DNA of 64,000 nt from Acidobacteria bacterium Ga0077551 (GTDB lineage: Bacteria > Pseudomonadota > Alphaproteobacteria > Caulobacterales > Hyphomonadaceae): positions 1-64,000 of the forward strand of contig LNFC01000018.1 of assembly GCA_001464545.1 (NCBI GenBank). The letters run 5' to 3'. A model generated the notes under the pieces. That model was given only the letters and a program-made list of their open reading frames with translations, was not told where the DNA came from and did no database searches. Below, piece after piece: positions 37,601 through 53,668 of this stretch (the stretch's first letter is position 1; each line of letters begins with the position of its first letter). The translations under genes and the position numbers were made by a program.

Positions 37601-38794
37601 ATGAAACTCGACCTTGATCCCGAATACGAAGCCTTTCGCGCCGAAGTCTCCGACACGCTTGCGAAAAACCGCCACCTGGCCCCCACGTCCGAGGACAAGG
37701 GCTACAAGAACGCCCGGCGCATCGCCTGGCAGAAGCTGCTGATCGAGCACGGCCTCGCCGCGCGAACGATCCCTAAGGCCTATGGCGGCTATGGCGGCGA
37801 ACCGGACATCCTGAAGGCGCGCATCATTGCTGAGGAATTCGCCCGCACCCGCACGCCAGGGCCGATGGCGGGGCAGGGCATCTCGATGCTCGTGCCGACG
37901 CTGCTGGAGCTCGGCACCGAGGCGCAGAAACAGGCCTATATCCGTCCGACCATCGAAGGCGAGATGATCTGGTGCCAGGGCTATTCCGAACCCGGCGCAG
38001 GATCAGACCTCGCCGCGCTGCGCACCTCGGCGGTGGAAGACGGTGATCACTACGTGATCAATGGCTCCAAGATCTGGACCTCGACCGCCAAGCAGGCCGA
38101 CATGATCTTCTGCCTGGTCCGCACGGACCCTGCCGCGAAGAAGCACGAGGGCATCACCTACATCACCTTCCCGATGTCGACGCCCGGCATCGAGGTGCGC
38201 CCGCTGGTCGACATGACCGGCAGCGCGAACTTCAACGAAGTCTTCTTCACGAACGTCCGTGTACCGAAGAGCGGCGTGATCGCGAAGCCGAATGTCGGCT
38301 GGCAAGTCGCCAACGCCACGCTGACCCACGAGCGCGGCATGCTCGGCGATCCGAACGCCACCAAGGCGCGCTTCCTCGAACTCGTCACGCTGATGAAGGA
38401 CGAGAGCGTCAACGGCCAGCGCCTGATCGACAATCCGTTGTTGCGCGACCGGCTGATGAAACTGCAGTCGGAAGTCTATGCCATGCAGGCAAACGGCCTG
38501 CGCATCACCACCAGCCGCCTGAAGGGCGAGCCGGCGGGCCTCGCCGGCCTGATCGTCAAGCTGAACGGCTGCGATCTCAACCACGAGATCGCCCGCCTCG
38601 CCATCGACGCGCTCGGCGAACTCGGCATCCTCTATGAGGACGGCGAACACCTGCGCGCCGACGGCAGCTGGCAGTGGCGCTACATGTACGACCTCGGCCT
38701 GATCATCGGCGGCGGCACCGCCCAGATCCAGAAGAACATCATCGCGGAACGCGGCCTCGACATGCCGCGCGAACCCAAGCTGGCGAAGGCGTAA
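37601..38794 (+). CDS. Acyl-CoA dehydrogenase family protein, first of a pair
   Basis: FAD-dependent acyl-CoA dehydrogenase, 397 residues from ATG 37601 (MKLDLDPEYEAF). Seen: WCQGYSEPGAGSDLAALRT (the FAD and substrate loop), YVINGSKIWTSTAKQADMIFCLVRTD, and a C-terminal GGGTAQIQKNIIAERGLDMPRE ending typical of the family. It is followed after only 5 bases by a second, shorter acyl-CoA dehydrogenase gene. This paired layout is known for heterotetrameric dehydrogenases of steroid side-chain and related bulky acyl-CoAs (ChsE-type), so the two may form one enzyme (inference). Confidence 0.9.
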   Translation: MKLDLDPEYEAFRAEVSDTLAKNRHLAPTSEDKGYKNARRIAWQKLLIEHGLAARTIPKAYGGYGGEPDILKARIIAEEFARTRTPGPMAGQGISMLVPTLLELGTEAQKQAYIRPTIEGEMIWCQGYSEPGAGSDLAALRTSAVEDGDHYVINGSKIWTSTAKQADMIFCLVRTDPAAKKHEGITYITFPMSTPGIEVRPLVDMTGSANFNEVFFTNVRVPKSGVIAKPNVGWQVANATLTHERGMLGDPNATKARFLELVTLMKDESVNGQRLIDNPLLRDRLMKLQSEVYAMQANGLRITTSRLKGEPAGLAGLIVKLNGCDLNHEIARLAIDALGELGILYEDGEHLRADGSWQWRYMYDLGLIIGGGTAQIQKNIIAERGLDMPREPKLAKA

Positions 38795-38799
38795 GGCAC

Positions 38800-39843
38800 A
38801 TGGAATTTGCACTCTCCGAAGACCAGCGCCTCCTTCAGGACAGCCTCAAGGGCGTCCTCGCCGGCGCCGCCTCACTCGACCAGATCCGCAAGATTGCCGT
38901 GGGCGATGCCGAAGCTTCCAGCGCACTGGAAACCGCACTTGCCGATTTCGGCCTCGCCTCCCTGCTCGTGCCGGAAGACGCCGGCGGGCTCGGTCTCGGC
39001 CTGCTCGACGCCTGCCTCGTGCAGGAAGCCCTCGGCTACCACATCGCCCCCTCAGGCTTCCTCGTGGGCGCCCTCGCGGCAACCGCCTTGGGATCGTACC
39101 CTGACCTGCTGAATCTGATCGCGGCCGGCGAGGCAAGGTTCGGGCTGGCGGCGACGGAGATGACCTCCCGGCGGGATGGGGCAGGGGTGTCCCTCGCGAA
39201 GGGAAAGCTCTCGGGCAAGTCGCTGCTGGCGATGAATGTCGAAGGCGCCACGCACCTGCTCGTAGCCGATAATGACGCGCACCTGCATGTCGTCGAAGCG
39301 ATAAAAGATGTCGTCCAGATGAGAACGATTGATAAAACGCGTGCATTCCATGAGGTGAAATTTGCGGGTTCGAAGCCCGTTGCGTCGCCGGAAACCGGTG
39401 ACCGCTTCCTCGCTGTCGCCCGCCTCCTGATCGCCGCAGACACCCTCGGCGCCGCGCAGGCGATGATCGACAGGGCGGTCGCCTACGCCGCCGAACGCCA
39501 ACAATTCGGCCGCGTCATCGGCTCGTTCCAGGCGGTCAAACACATGTGCGCCGAAATGGCCGCCAAGCTCGAACCCGGCCGCGCATTGATCTGGCACGCC
39601 GCCCACGCGCTCGACATCGGCGACCCCGAAGGCCCCGTCATGGCGAACCTTGCGAAGTCCTACGTGGCGGAGGCCGGAACCTTCATCGCCCGCACCTCGA
39701 CCGAAGTGCACGGCGGCATGGGTTTCACCGATCTCGTCGGCCTGCACTACTGGTACAAGCGCATCGGCGTGAACCGCCAACTCTTCGGATCGCCCGAACA
39801 GGCACGCGAGACAGCCGCCGAATTGCAGGGTTTGCTGGCGTAA
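38800..39843 (+). CDS. Acyl-CoA dehydrogenase family protein, second of a pair
   Basis: 347 residues from ATG 38800 (MEFALSEDQRLLQDSLKGVL). Seen: acyl-CoA dehydrogenase N-terminal and C-terminal domains, AYAAERQQFGRVIGSFQAVKHMCAEMAAKLE, and VHGGMGFTDLVGLHYWYKRIGVNRQLFG near the end. The middle domain is degenerate, lacking the clear WxT/S FAD motif seen in its partner. That shortening is typical of one subunit in alpha2beta2 acyl-CoA dehydrogenases. It follows its partner after 5 bases. Confidence 0.88.
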   Translation: MEFALSEDQRLLQDSLKGVLAGAASLDQIRKIAVGDAEASSALETALADFGLASLLVPEDAGGLGLGLLDACLVQEALGYHIAPSGFLVGALAATALGSYPDLLNLIAAGEARFGLAATEMTSRRDGAGVSLAKGKLSGKSLLAMNVEGATHLLVADNDAHLHVVEAIKDVVQMRTIDKTRAFHEVKFAGSKPVASPETGDRFLAVARLLIAADTLGAAQAMIDRAVAYAAERQQFGRVIGSFQAVKHMCAEMAAKLEPGRALIWHAAHALDIGDPEGPVMANLAKSYVAEAGTFIARTSTEVHGGMGFTDLVGLHYWYKRIGVNRQLFGSPEQARETAAELQGLLA

Positions 39844-39946
39844 AAGCCCACACAACTTGTCCGCGAGTTTAGTATTGATGAGTATCTGAACGTGTGAGAT
39901 TGTTTCCGCGATATGCACACCTTGGTCGTGCTCGCGGAGACCTTTG

Positions 39947-40501
39947 ATGACTGAAGTCCGGATCGATTATGTAGGCCTTGCCCGGCGCGCGGCGGAGTTT
40001 GAATTCCGGCGCGCAAGCTACGCCGAACTCCATGCTGGACTTGCACTCGCCGAGAAGTTGACCGGGCAAGCGATGGCCACCCCCGCCTCTATCCACTGGA
40101 TCGACGGCCTCACCGGCATGGCCGGCTGGGTCACCGGCGATCCCGTCGACGGCGTCTTCATCACCGTACCCCTGAGCACCGAAGGCGTCGCAGCCGTGCG
40201 CGATGGCAGCTTCGTCCCCGCCTGGCCCTCGCTCGCCCATATCTGCTGCAAGGACGAGGCCTGCGGCGGCGTCTATATCGGCGTCTATGCAGGCGCGACG
40301 AAGGAATCCCGGCGGCGCGTGATGATGGCGGCGGGGATCACGCGGATGGAGTTCTTCGCGCTGGTGCCGTGCTTTGCGCGCGGGGCAACGGAAGACGGCA
40401 AGCGCTCGATGGCTTCGCTCGGATTCCACGCCCTCGAAGGCGGATTGCCGGACCTCTGGGGCCAGGACCCGCTGCCGGTCTCGCAGGAGCAGGCCGCATG
40501 A
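39947..40501 (+). CDS. Hypothetical protein with a possible GNAT-like fold, coupled to the next gene
   Basis: Not firmly recognised. Seen: 184 residues, a central cysteine-rich segment SLAHICCKDEACGGVYIGVYAG, and a C-terminal part reading TRMEFFALVPCFARGATEDGKRSMASLGFHALEGG, which resembles the last strands of an acetyltransferase (a LGF near the end). No signal peptide or membrane helix. The gene ends ATGA, overlapping the start of a FeeM/AHL-synthase-like acyltransferase gene, so both products are probably made in fixed ratio and may work together. Confidence 0.75.
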   Translation: MTEVRIDYVGLARRAAEFEFRRASYAELHAGLALAEKLTGQAMATPASIHWIDGLTGMAGWVTGDPVDGVFITVPLSTEGVAAVRDGSFVPAWPSLAHICCKDEACGGVYIGVYAGATKESRRRVMMAAGITRMEFFALVPCFARGATEDGKRSMASLGFHALEGGLPDLWGQDPLPVSQEQAA

Positions 40502-41118
40502 GACCGCGCCCGGACTTTGGCGAGCTGTCGCTGACACGGCCGCTGGAGCCTTCGATGCTCGCGCGGTTTTCGGCCGGGCCTGTGCGCACGTTGGAGGAAT
40601 ACCAGCAGGCGATGACCCTGCGCGCCGCGGTCTACATGGCCGAGCAGGACTGTCCGTATGAGGAAGAGTATGACGGGAACGACTTTTCCGGCACCCACAT
40701 CCTCGTGCGCGAGGGGACGCGCCCCGCAGGCACCTGCCGGGTGCGCTGGTTCGCCGATTTCGCCAAGATAGAGCGCTCGACCATCATCCCTGCCTACCGC
40801 GGCACCCCGGCGCTGCGCGTACTTATGGCGGAGACCTGCGAGGTGATCTCGCGCAAGGGCTACCGGGTCGCACTGGCGCAGATCCAGTCCCGGCTATGGC
40901 CGGTCTGGAGCCGCGTGTTCCGCTGCCAGGTGGTGACCGGCCGGCCGCATTTCGCGTTCTCGGATTTTGACTATTGCGAGATGGAAATCCCGATCGCCCC
41001 GCACCCGCAGGCGCTGACCATCCGGGCGGACCCCTTGCAGATCATCCGGCCGGAAGGGGACTGGGACCAGCCGGGCGTGCTGGACCGGTCGGCCAGCCGG
41101 CCTGCCGAGGCGGCCTGA
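40498..41118 (+). CDS. GNAT-superfamily acyltransferase, FeeM/AHL-synthase-like
   Basis: 206 residues from the ATG at 40498 that overlaps the upstream stop codon. Seen: the pattern LRAAVYMAEQDCPYEEEYDGNDFSGTHILV, then AGTCRVRWFADFAKIERS and RGTPALRVLMAETCEVISRKGYR, and FSDFDYCEMEIPI. The R..VY..E..(D/E)EYD..D..THIL frame is that of N-acyl amino acid and acyl-homoserine-lactone synthases, which use acyl donors, so the product may be an acylated small molecule (inference). No luxR-type gene is in this window. The disordered C-terminal tail ends in PAEAA. Confidence 0.8.
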   Translation: MRPRPDFGELSLTRPLEPSMLARFSAGPVRTLEEYQQAMTLRAAVYMAEQDCPYEEEYDGNDFSGTHILVREGTRPAGTCRVRWFADFAKIERSTIIPAYRGTPALRVLMAETCEVISRKGYRVALAQIQSRLWPVWSRVFRCQVVTGRPHFAFSDFDYCEMEIPIAPHPQALTIRADPLQIIRPEGDWDQPGVLDRSASRPAEAA

Positions 41119-41234
41119 CACCGGGAACAATGAACCCGGCTGACCGCTTGTTTTTCGCCGCGAGCCGCGCCACTAACAACGTTGTCGCCCGGTCTTGGTG
41201 CGGCCTAGCGTTCCCCGGCTTTCAGGACCCGCCC

Positions 41235-41870
41235 ATGTCCGTCAACCTGCTGAAACTCGATACCGCCGCGCGCAAGGCGCCAGTCGTGCCCGTAATCGTT
41301 GTGGACTCCGCGCGCCAGGCCGCGCCGCTGGCCCGCACGCTGGTGAAGGCGGGGATAACCATCGCGGAAGTTACGCTGCGCACGCCCGCAGGCCTTGAGG
41401 CGATTGCCGCGATGCGGGCCGAAGCGCCGGAATTGCTGGTTGGCGCGGGCACCGTGTTGACCGGGCAGGACGCCGACGCGGCGTTGAAAGCCGGAGCGGA
41501 ATTCCTGGTCTCGCCGGGCATGTCGCCCGGCCTGCGCGATGCGCTGCGCGGGCGGGAACACGTGATGATTCCGGGCATTGCGACCGCCAGCGAGGGGATG
41601 GCGCGGCACGAAGAGGGCTTTGCCCGGTTGAAGCTGTTTCCGGCGGCTATCGCGGGCGGGGCGCCGGCGCTGAAGGCGCTGGCTGGACCTTTGCCGCACC
41701 TGCGGTTCATGCCGACCGGCGGCATCGGCGAGGGCGAGGTGAAGACCTATCTGAGCCTGCCCAACGTGTTCGCCATCGGCGGATCCTGGATCGCCAGCCA
41801 GTCCGACATTGCGGCCGGAAACTGGGGCCGGATCGACGAAATCGCGCGCCGATTGCTGGCGCTGGCATAG
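41235..41870 (+). CDS. eda: 2-keto-3-deoxy-6-phosphogluconate (KDPG) aldolase
   Basis: Splits KDPG into pyruvate and glyceraldehyde-3-phosphate in the Entner-Doudoroff pathway. Seen: 211 residues from ATG 41235, the general acid/base E45 in AEVTLRT, GAGTVLT, the Schiff-base lysine K133 in LKLFPA, and the phosphate-binding MPTGGI. No edd or zwf lies beside it. It sits just before the polysaccharide genes but need not be part of that transcript. Confidence 0.93.
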   Translation: MSVNLLKLDTAARKAPVVPVIVVDSARQAAPLARTLVKAGITIAEVTLRTPAGLEAIAAMRAEAPELLVGAGTVLTGQDADAALKAGAEFLVSPGMSPGLRDALRGREHVMIPGIATASEGMARHEEGFARLKLFPAAIAGGAPALKALAGPLPHLRFMPTGGIGEGEVKTYLSLPNVFAIGGSWIASQSDIAAGNWGRIDEIARRLLALA

Positions 41871-51268: not shown

Positions 51269-53668
51269 TTGTCCAAAACTTTCTCGTTCGAACTTCCGAC
51301 CAACATGGCCTCCTCCGGCGGCGATCACACGCCTGCGCCTCCGCTCGATCTGAAGGCGCTGATCGGCGTTGTGTATCGCCGCTTCTGGATGATCCTGGCC
51401 GGATTCCTGACGACGTTTGGCATCATAACCTTCGTGACCTTCAATCAGACGCCGATCTATCAGGCCGAAACCGTGGTTCAGCTCGATACCGAGCAGAAGA
51501 ACGTAATCGACCTTGGCGCGATCTTCTCCGGGCTTGGCGGAAACACCGCCGTCGTTGACACCGAAGTGCTCGTGCTGGGCTCGAAGTCTCTGCTCACACG
51601 CGTCGCGGTCCAACAGGGACTCGTCGAAGACCCCGAATTCAATCCATCACTTCTGCCACCCAAGAAGGGGCTGCTTTCGCCGGTCCAGGGCGTTGTGCGG
51701 GCCGTTACCGGCGCCAAACCGCCTGCGGATCCGTTTGAAGGGATGACGCCTGAGCAGAAGGATGCCGCGCTCCTGGAATCTGCCGTCGGCATCCTCAGCG
51801 ACAAGGTTTCCGTCAGCCGCGTCGGCACGACTTACCTGATCACCGTGACCGTCTCGAGCGTCTCGCCGGAAACGGCTGCACGCCTGGCGGACGAGATTGC
51901 CGAACAGTACCGCGTCCAGCAGCTCGAAGAAAAGTTCGAAGCAACCCGCAAGGCCACCGAATGGCTGTCCGAGCGCGTGTCGGGCCTGCGCGAGGAAGTC
52001 GAAGAAAAAGAACGCCGCGTCGAGAGCTACCGCGCCGAGTCCGGCTTGCTCGCTGCCCAGGGCGCGACGCTGACCGAACAGCAGATCGCCTACCTGACGA
52101 CCCAGAAAGCCACCCTGCAGCTTGACCTCGACCGCGCCCGTGCCCGCGCCGAAAGCGTGCGCCGCCAGATGGCGAGCGGCGCCGGAGCTGATGGCGTGAC
52201 GGAAGTTCTCCAGTCCCAGGTCATCTCCGACCTCAAGACCCAGCGCGCGATCATCAATCGCCGGGTGTCCGAACTCGAAACGAAGCTTGGCCCTCAGCAC
52301 CCCGAACTCATCAGTGCCCGGAACGAAGCCGCTGACATTGATCGCCAGATCAATGCGGAAGTCTCCCGCATCGCCGGCAACATCGAGAACGAGCTGAAGG
52401 TCGCCCAGGCCCAGATCAGCTCGATCCAGGGCGAAATCGGCCGCTCCACCTATGAGCTGCGCGGCAACAACCAGGCGCTCGTGCGTCTGCGTGAACTTGA
52501 GCGCGATGCCGACACCAGCCGCATCCTGCTCGAGGAATTCCTGACCCGCTCCAAGCAGACCGGCGAACAGGACGCACTGATCACCGCTGACGCCAACATC
52601 CTGTCGCGCGCCTCGGTCCCGGATTCGCCGAGCTCGCCCAAGAAGCTGCTCAACCTGATCATCGGCTGCCTGCTCGGCGCCATCATCGGCGGCGGCCTCG
52701 CACTGCTGGCCGAAATGTTCGACATGAAGATCAGCTCAACCGAAGACGTTGAGCGCAAGCTCGGCGCCAATCCGATCGGTTCCGTGCCGCTGATCCGCAC
52801 CGCCAGCTTCCTCGGCCTGTCGCAGACCAACCCGGCCGATTATCTGGTCGAGAATCCGCTCTCCGCCTACGCCGAAAGCATACGCTATCTGCGCGCCGCC
52901 ATCGCCTTCTCGGATCTCGACAGCGAGACCAAGACCGTTGCCATCTGCTCGTCGCTTCCCGACGAAGGCAAGACCAGCCTGACGCTCTCGCTGGGCCGCA
53001 TGTCAGCGATGTCGGGCTCGCGCACGCTCGTCATCGACGGCGACTTCCGCCGCCGCCAGCTGACCGAAACCGCCGGCCTAAAACCGGACATCGGTTTCGT
53101 CGAGCACCTCTTCGGCGCCGGCCAGCTCTCGGATGCAATCGTCAAGGATCGCAAGACGATGCTCGACATCCTGCCGCTCTCGCAGAACGGACACACCCCG
53201 CACGACGTGTTCGGCACGCGCGCGTTCGACGACCTGCTGCAGCGCCTGCGCTCGATGTATGACCTGATCCTGATCGACACCGGCCCGCTGCTGCTGATGG
53301 CCGAAGCCCGTGTGGTGGCCGGCAAGGCCGACAAGACGATCCTGGTTGTCCGCTGGCGCCACTCGGCCCGCTCGGCCGCCCGCCAGTCGCTGACGCTGCT
53401 GCGCAACTTCAAGGCCGATGTGCTGGGCGTGACCCTGAACATGGTCGACCTCAACCGCCGCCGTCACCACCGCGACCCCGGCGCGACCTACAAGGCCTAC
53501 CGCAAGTATTACCAGATGGACGAGAAGCCCTCGCTCTTCAATTGGGGCGGCGACAAGGCCAAGTCGAAGACGAACGCGAAAGGCCTCAAGGGCACGGTTG
53601 CCGTCCAGGTTCCGCCGACCAAGGCTACGGGCCGGAGCGAGCCGGTCGACCGGATCTCCGCAGAGTAA
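51269..53668 (+). CDS. Polysaccharide co-polymerase with BY-kinase domain (Wzc-like)
   Basis: Inner-membrane protein controlling chain length and export of the polysaccharide, 799 residues. Seen: a Wzz domain with membrane helix one at about 35-54 (FWMILAGFLTTFGIITFVTF), a long coiled coil (about 208-420), helix two at about 458-480, then a tyrosine autokinase domain. The kinase has Walker A SSLPDEGKTS (about 561), Walker A' LVIDGDFRR (about 588) and Walker B LILIDTGPLL (about 666). A short tyrosine cluster (YKAYRKYY, about 742-749) is followed by a basic tail without tyrosines. The start is TTG at 51269 with AGAGG upstream; ATG 51305 is the next choice. Likely phosphorylation targets include itself and UGD (inference). 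Confidence 0.93.
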   Translation: MSKTFSFELPTNMASSGGDHTPAPPLDLKALIGVVYRRFWMILAGFLTTFGIITFVTFNQTPIYQAETVVQLDTEQKNVIDLGAIFSGLGGNTAVVDTEVLVLGSKSLLTRVAVQQGLVEDPEFNPSLLPPKKGLLSPVQGVVRAVTGAKPPADPFEGMTPEQKDAALLESAVGILSDKVSVSRVGTTYLITVTVSSVSPETAARLADEIAEQYRVQQLEEKFEATRKATEWLSERVSGLREEVEEKERRVESYRAESGLLAAQGATLTEQQIAYLTTQKATLQLDLDRARARAESVRRQMASGAGADGVTEVLQSQVISDLKTQRAIINRRVSELETKLGPQHPELISARNEAADIDRQINAEVSRIAGNIENELKVAQAQISSIQGEIGRSTYELRGNNQALVRLRELERDADTSRILLEEFLTRSKQTGEQDALITADANILSRASVPDSPSSPKKLLNLIIGCLLGAIIGGGLALLAEMFDMKISSTEDVERKLGANPIGSVPLIRTASFLGLSQTNPADYLVENPLSAYAESIRYLRAAIAFSDLDSETKTVAICSSLPDEGKTSLTLSLGRMSAMSGSRTLVIDGDFRRRQLTETAGLKPDIGFVEHLFGAGQLSDAIVKDRKTMLDILPLSQNGHTPHDVFGTRAFDDLLQRLRSMYDLILIDTGPLLLMAEARVVAGKADKTILVVRWRHSARSAARQSLTLLRNFKADVLGVTLNMVDLNRRRHHRDPGATYKAYRKYYQMDEKPSLFNWGGDKAKSKTNAKGLKGTVAVQVPPTKATGRSEPVDRISAE

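Follow-up and report, generated by a model that had tools for sequence, protein, structure and literature searches.

A predicted pair of GNAT-fold proteins encoded by overlapping genes in Hyphomonadaceae, candidate subunits of one acyltransferase

Introduction

Two overlapping genes, here called A and B, in a 64,000-nt window (the whole stretch of DNA that was analyzed) from a Hyphomonadaceae genome raise the question of whether their products work as one enzyme and, if so, of what kind. The initial annotation had described A as a cysteine-containing protein with a possible GNAT end and B as a FeeM- or acyl-homoserine-lactone (AHL)-synthase-like acyltransferase, and had proposed that the two form a two-subunit enzyme making an acylated signal or lipid. 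We recognized no publication on the A-B pair or on such GNAT-LuxR pairs in the open-access literature as far as it was available to us, from which absence from print does not follow.

Results

Layout of the locus

The features of the locus are collected in Table 1. A and B overlap as ATGA, and the coordinates, the strand and the shared nucleotides of the initial annotation are all correct. The AGGAG sequence lies 8 nt upstream of the start of B. Two acyl-CoA dehydrogenase-like genes on the + strand precede A, the second ending at 39843, and a KDPG-aldolase-like gene followed by sugar-nucleotide genes lies downstream of B; these names come from reading the translations. A search of 38600-41400 gave no sigma70-like promoter and 2 terminator-like sites against 1.8 expected. 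The named close relatives of the pair are mostly Hyphomonas or Hyphomonadaceae records. On the minus strand further downstream, ARAGORN called a tRNA-Arg (tct) at 52059-52145 of the window; this possibly false call falls within a large ORF (51269-53668) that reads as polysaccharide-export-kinase-like.

Table 1. Positions of the A-B gene pair and its sequence features in the window.
Feature	Position	Strand	Remarks
Gene A	39947..40501	+	184 aa, predicted cryptic GNAT fold without CoA P-loop
Gene B	40498..41118	+	206-aa GNAT, ElaA/YjcF/SACOL1063 type nearest, degenerate P-loop
ATGA stop/start overlap of A and B	40498..40501	+	putative translational coupling
AGGAG, ribosome-binding-like site of B, inside A	40485..40489	+	from sequence
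GCGGAG, ribosome-binding-like site of A	39934..39939	+	from sequence
A residues 109-124, strand beta4 to helix alpha3	40271..40318	+	predicted secondary structure and sequence; few residues at the P-loop place
A residues 143-160, FARGATEDGKRSMASLGF, beta5-alpha4, strongly conserved	40373..40426	+	alignments and model
B residues 45-70, VYMAEQDCPYEEEYDGNDFSGTHILV, acid-rich signature	40630..40707	+	sequence and alignments
B residues 101-110, RGTPALRVLM, degenerate P-loop (motif A)	40798..40827	+	
B Trp137; Tyr at that column in YjcF and SACOL1063	40906..40908	+	alignment
B residues 184-201, conserved C-terminal tail RPEGxWDxPGVLDxSxxR	41047..41100	+	low confidence in the monomer model

Gene A is predicted to encode a cryptic GNAT fold

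Gene A has no Pfam match. As a single query it returned no GNAT match by sequence in Pfam, NCBIfam or PDB, and a set of 40 A sequences gave no GNAT match either, the few weak rows all belonging to unrelated families. The AlphaFold model of A, built from 18 sequences (pLDDT 86.9, pTM 0.83), was compared with known structures. By title, the best 50 of 500 Foldseek rows against the PDB are acetyltransferases or complexes holding one (best E 3.5e-4, two at E ≤ 0.001), and VIA-align placed serotonin N-acetyltransferase first at Z 12.6, with many rows within 1 Z. The GNAT-like decarboxylase domains of CurA and GphF are among the structures nearest to A (Z 11.4-11.6, 9% identity). Many other GNATs score within 1 Z of these domains, and we therefore claim no membership in that group. 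Where a GNAT end had been suspected, the predicted model gives the whole A protein the fold of the GNAT superfamily, and A is thereby predicted to be kin to GNATs. The profiles of A and B do not match (hhalign probability 0.2%), which leaves common ancestry of the two unsupported by profile.

In the available part of PMC4964394, the GNAT P-loop consensus is given as Gln/Arg-x-x-Gly-x-Gly/Ala. A lacks this motif; in model and sequence, its strand 108-116 and helix 119-136 nearly abut and leave no room for a P-loop. Among the residues conserved in at least 90% of 40 diverse A sequences are Y110, A115, R145, G151, and G159. In the model, the conserved residues appear to lie on or beside the strands and the helix lining the GNAT cleft, so the cleft of A may still bind something. 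The cysteines that had been pointed out in A are present, but in an alignment of 16 Hyphomonas orthologues, several have other residues in place of C142 and of the cysteines in HICCKDEAC. A metal-binding or redox role was rejected on account of this lack of conservation.

Gene B is a GNAT closest to SACOL1063, YjcF, and ElaA by profile and model

In Pfam, the B protein (P0002) has only a weak match to Acetyltransf_1 (E 0.012, below cut-off), and the nearest NCBIfam model, a plain GNAT, remained far below its own cut-off. A phmmer search of the PDB returned YjcF (5.9e-8), SACOL1063, and ElaA, and a profile of 41 B relatives raised YjcF to 1.9e-19; 39 of these relatives match Acetyltransf_1 at E ≤ 1 (best 5.4e-13). 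The best sequence matches of B are YjcF, SACOL1063, PA0115, and ElaA. The AlphaFold model of B (pLDDT 79.1, pTM 0.78) is closest to SACOL1063 (Z 19.8, rmsd 1.8 over 141), followed by YjcF (Z 18.3), 3efa (17.9), PA0115 (16.8), and ElaA (16.4). The tandem GNAT 2wpx (15.2), FeeM (2g0b; 14.7, rmsd 2.8 over 144, 10% identity) and the LuxI protein TofI (3p2h; 14.0) rank lower. FeeM and TofI therefore stand among generic GNATs for this model, and the ElaA/YjcF group is best by sequence and structure combined. Predicted model and sequence profile both give B the fold of the GNAT superfamily, as the annotation of B as an acyltransferase had implied.

The frame VY..E..EYD...THIL, on which the AHL-synthase-like reading had been built, is present in B as VYMAEQDCPYEEEYDGNDFSGTHILV. 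Its acid-rich part is also visible in the alignments to YjcF, SACOL1063, and PA0115. B has an E-x-D-x-x-D spacing that it may share with LuxI-type AHL synthases. For P0002 itself, no match to PF21926 (FeeM) or PF00765 (autoinducer synthase) is listed up to E = 10. The profile of 41 relatives retrieved no FeeM or LuxI chain from the PDB at E ≤ 10, a result that is uninformative by itself. On the Pfam results and the structure ranking, we rejected FeeM/LuxI membership for the B of the window: by profile and model, it is a GNAT whose nearest solved relatives are SACOL1063, YjcF, and ElaA, not FeeM or LuxI. Of the earlier designation, the acyltransferase fold stands (YjcF at 1.9e-19, SACOL1063 at Z 19.8), and the specific FeeM/AHL-synthase identity is not supported.

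Among the relatives of B, PF21926 matches 14 of 41 at E ≤ 1 (best 1.1e-8) and PF00765 two of 41 (best 0.044). When 20 relatives were scanned singly, all 20 passed the Acetyltransf_1 cut-off and one passed the curated FeeM cut-off of 27 bits. The B protein of one paired locus (L135) reaches 35.4 bits with FeeM, at positions 80-143 of 158 and so in the second half of the profile, and this score lies above its Acetyltransf_1 score; five further proteins scanned fall short of the FeeM cut-off.

B has lost the usual donor-site motifs and kept an acid-rich signature

The available part of PMC4964394 names the helix-4 Tyr as the proposed general acid in several, not all, GNATs. At the P-loop place, P0002 reads RGTPAL and departs from the canonical Q/R-x-x-G-x-G/A. 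We compared 109 unique B-family sequences, which are not independent since many come from Hyphomonas, and 26-27 of which have no B tail. A canonical [RQ]xxGx[GA] occurs in 7 and is missing from 102 of these; among the tail-bearing sequences it occurs in 5 of 83. The helix-4 Tyr column holds Trp in 97 of the 109 (Trp137 in the B of the window), and the Tyr that is commonly, if not universally, found near the thioester sulphur on helix 4 is accordingly missing from B. Conservation of the acid signature is almost complete, with E56, E57, D59, N61, and D62 each present in 81-82 of the 83 tail-bearing sequences; the motif-A Arg occurs in 81 of them.

These motifs set B apart from the standard acetyl-CoA GNATs. 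With its changed pyrophosphate loop and Trp in place of Tyr, B probably uses a donor other than plain acetyl-CoA or a chemistry different from theirs. Carrier-protein acyl donors are known for FeeM, SbzC, and SbzI from the available part of PMC6331615.

The C-terminal tail, R-x-E-G-x-W, is conserved in 82 of 109 B-family sequences and has low confidence in the monomer model. It is found also where an A-type gene is absent and is thus not A-specific, and a role as an A-specific clamp was rejected for this reason.

A and B are inherited together and occasionally fused

Co-occurrence of the pair was surveyed across genomes, many of which are MAGs. Among 249 genomes of the order, 75 carry A (80 matches) and 80 carry B (84 matches), and A stands directly before B on the same strand for 78 of the 80 A matches. 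The exceptions are G113, with A and B at contig ends, and G261:C24 (L209), where a LysR gene, A and a hydrolase-like gene are found without a B match on a contig that runs on; this is the sole such locus seen in the order. Six B matches have no scored A. A diverged A adjoins four of them (G116, G235, G248, and G113), the neighboring A is weak in G056, and in G094 it is recognizable by position only. Within the genus (37 genomes), A occurs in 33 and B in 34 genomes, and 36 of 37 have both or neither. Those without both are G006, G011 (85% complete), and G020; in G030, the contig begins inside B. In the class sample of 385 genomes, A was found in four, each time with B adjacent or fused. A is thus not separated from B in most genomes searched, in line with the pairing that had been proposed.

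Three natural fusions in the order A-then-B were found, L176 (408 aa), L196, and L238; L196 lies on a contig of a viral collection with a LysR gene upstream and is perhaps host DNA. Between the window and L061, dN/dS is 0.074 for A and 0.047 for B, and it reaches up to 0.179 in other computed pairs. Both A and B evolve under purifying selection. Together with the recurrence of the pair in 78 of 80 A matches, this makes the pair more than chance.

Some records show irregularities. B is cut short in G022, and A is split into two frames with a stop in G009, possibly through assembly errors. Hyphomonas-like loci 95% (L061) and 81% (L065) identical to A occur in two MAG records under the title 'Candidatus Sulfopaludibacter', a name that looks wrong for them.

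A LysR gene adjoins the pair in most sampled relatives

A divergent LysR gene precedes the pair in at least 17 of 20 loci from other genera of the order, and in at least 11 of them B is followed by an isochorismatase-like gene (L141 and L143 are listed off-centre, and L136 has no LysR gene). PF00857 matches both hydrolase-like proteins tested (L130 and L179). Of 16 isochorismatase-like sequences, only 5 have a Cys aligned with the catalytic position. Its absence from the remaining 11 (L130, L131, L134, L135, L137, L140, L142, L143, L144, L145, and L177) suggests that these neighbors are non-catalytic members. A role as signal hydrolase was rejected, since 11 of 16 lack the expected Cys and the gene does not adjoin the pair of the window.

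In Hyphomonas, 30 of 33 A loci were checked. A LysR gene lies beside the pair in 17 of the 30 (L014-L030) and is absent within about 1.5 kb in 13 (L001-L013), one of which (L003) ends early at a contig end. These 13 loci constitute the clade of the window (A identity 71% or more), in which an acyl-CoA dehydrogenase gene precedes the pair at a distance of about 100 nt. The best of the LysR genes elsewhere in the genome of the window is 32% identical to the LysR of H. oceanitis, so the adjacent LysR gene was probably lost in this clade.

Relatives of B outside the order have other partners

The B profile matches 42 of 385 class genomes at E ≤ 1e-10. Of 30 matching class genomes from outside the order, two have an A match. 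Outside the order, B is accompanied by a membrane nucleotidyltransferase-type protein, a second copy, another neighbor, or none, and since it mostly occurs there without recognizable A, B does not need A everywhere. At six loci (L178, L179, L180, L181, L186, and L187), the membrane protein replaces A between LysR and B; the one tested has a C-terminal cytidylyltransferase-like domain (PF01467, E 2.1e-5). B is duplicated at L186 and L187. Of 398 genomes sampled across the phylum, 15 match B at E ≤ 1e-25, all from the same class.

At 14 distant B-related loci (L191-L194, L211-L220), a LuxR-like gene adjoins the GNAT gene in six (L193, L194, L211, L212, L214, and L216); the two genes lie at L193:6341-7608 and L194:6150-7636 in the first two of these. 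A profile of the six LuxR-like regulators aligns with TraR over positions 25-232 of 237 (E 1.8e-7), and four of the six match Autoind_bind and GerE at E ≤ 0.1; the member tabled singly is below the Pfam cut-offs. Four of the six LuxR-coupled GNATs match PF21926 at E ≤ 0.1 (best 3.9e-5). These proteins are distant relatives only and have no B tail. Such a GNAT and its TraR-like regulator possibly form a non-LuxI signal synthase/receptor pair. Beside the A-B loci, we saw no gene of the LuxR-like cluster; the neighbors are LysR genes.

The pair of the window has no adjacent cognate LuxR gene of the kind that marks LuxI. The remark that no luxR gene is near holds: the sole PF03472 match of the genome, a LuxR-type gene with an autoinducer-binding domain (L247:1375-2121, G000:C25), lies on another contig than the pair. 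PF00765 has no match in the whole genome, and the same search was empty in control genomes, so that this does not establish absence.

Discussion

The GNAT fold predicted for each protein, their joint inheritance and their occasional fusion indicate that A and B are probably one two-part enzyme. The A-before-B fusions, the close linkage and the two GNAT folds are best read as a split tandem-GNAT plan. On balance, and with modest confidence, we favor a single acyltransferase with A and B as its subunits, a tandem GNAT divided over overlapping genes. The two-subunit enzyme of the initial annotation is plausible from the three fusions; the physical complex, the catalysis and the division of labor are inferred. 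B would hold the working site, made up of the acid-rich acceptor loop (EEYDGND) and the altered donor cleft. A would be a GNAT-fold partner that has no P-loop, associates with B and gives the substrate pocket its shape, a part played in Eis or MshD by the second GNAT domain. In its usual setting in relatives, a divergent LysR regulator would control this enzyme and an isochorismatase-like gene often follows; the adjacent LysR gene is missing in the clade of the window.

Eis and MshD are tandem GNATs with one catalytic and one non-catalytic domain and the acceptor between them, as described in the accessible part of PMC4964394. The A-B fusions resemble MshD, Eis, and the clavulanate-pathway protein 2wpx in their two-domain layout, and 2wpx matches B at Z 15.2. 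In contrast to these tandem GNATs, A and B are normally two genes, A is without any P-loop segment, and no sequence similarity is recognized. SACOL1063, YjcF, ElaA, and PA0115 are like B in profile and structure and share with it the signature R..v[fy]..eQ..p..E.D. B differs from them by its degenerate P-loop, the Trp in place of Tyr, the conserved C-terminal tail and, in the order, the partner A alongside.

The motif losses could also mean that B is no enzyme. Both proteins might then be GNAT-derived ligand-binding proteins serving the LysR circuit, a reading consistent with an A without P-loop segment, a B without the P-loop glycines and the usual Tyr, and a hydrolase-like neighbor with the aligned Cys in just 5 of 16 sequences. 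We consider it unlikely, given that the acid signature (81-82 of 83) and the motif-A Arg (81 of 83) of B are almost invariant and that in the clade of the window, where no LysR gene adjoins the pair, purifying selection maintains both genes. Active GNATs with atypical P-loops also exist, according to the available part of PMC4964394.

It is also rather unlikely that an N-acylated signal or lipid is the product of the pair, with B drawing the acyl group from an acyl carrier protein and A helping to bind the carrier or the amine. In its favor are the degenerate P-loop of B, the FeeM matches in 14 of 41 relatives and in four of the six LuxR-coupled ones, the paired B protein of L135 above the FeeM cut-off, the TraR-related neighbors in 6 of 14 distant loci, and a genome in which PF03472 matches one LuxR-type gene and PF00765 matches none, although the PF00765 search, being empty in control genomes as well, does not show that LuxI is absent. 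FeeM and TofI share the GNAT fold with B, but P0002 has neither a FeeM nor an autoinducer-synthase match at E ≤ 10, and other GNAT groups are closer (ElaA/YjcF-type structures at Z 16.4-19.8 versus 14.7 for FeeM and 14.0 for TofI). Only 1 of 20 relatives passes the FeeM cut-off whereas all 20 pass that of Acetyltransf_1; the A-B loci adjoin LysR rather than LuxR-like genes, and the LuxR-coupled GNATs are distant and tailless. With one relative above the FeeM cut-off and a LuxR-type neighbor at 6 of 14 distant loci, signaling stays a minority reading.

That B is an ordinary ElaA-like acetyltransferase and A an unrelated regulatory neighbor held by operon structure would agree with the best sequence matches of B (YjcF, SACOL1063, PA0115, and ElaA), with a plain GNAT as its nearest NCBIfam model, far below cut-off, and with its occurrence outside the order without recognizable A, but is quite improbable in view of the three fusions, the joint presence or absence in the genus, the predicted GNAT fold of A itself and the loss of standard acetyl-CoA features in B.

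The split tandem acyltransferase thus remains our preferred reading for the pair. For the B family as a whole, we give little credence to a broader proposal, namely that its members are undescribed alphaproteobacterial synthases of small molecules, possibly signals, with a non-CoA acyl donor, interchangeable partners (the cryptic GNAT A, the membrane nucleotidyltransferase-type protein, or none) and receptors of LysR or LuxR type. Such synthases could feed an orphan LuxR in hosts without recognized LuxI, for example that of the window.

If the preferred reading is right, the GNAT superfamily would gain a protein family without Pfam match (A), and a conserved two-gene enzyme, LysR-linked in most relatives, would become a target in the search for a new acylated metabolite of Alphaproteobacteria. 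Related GNATs with LuxR-type regulators beside them would offer a testable route to non-LuxI signal synthases.
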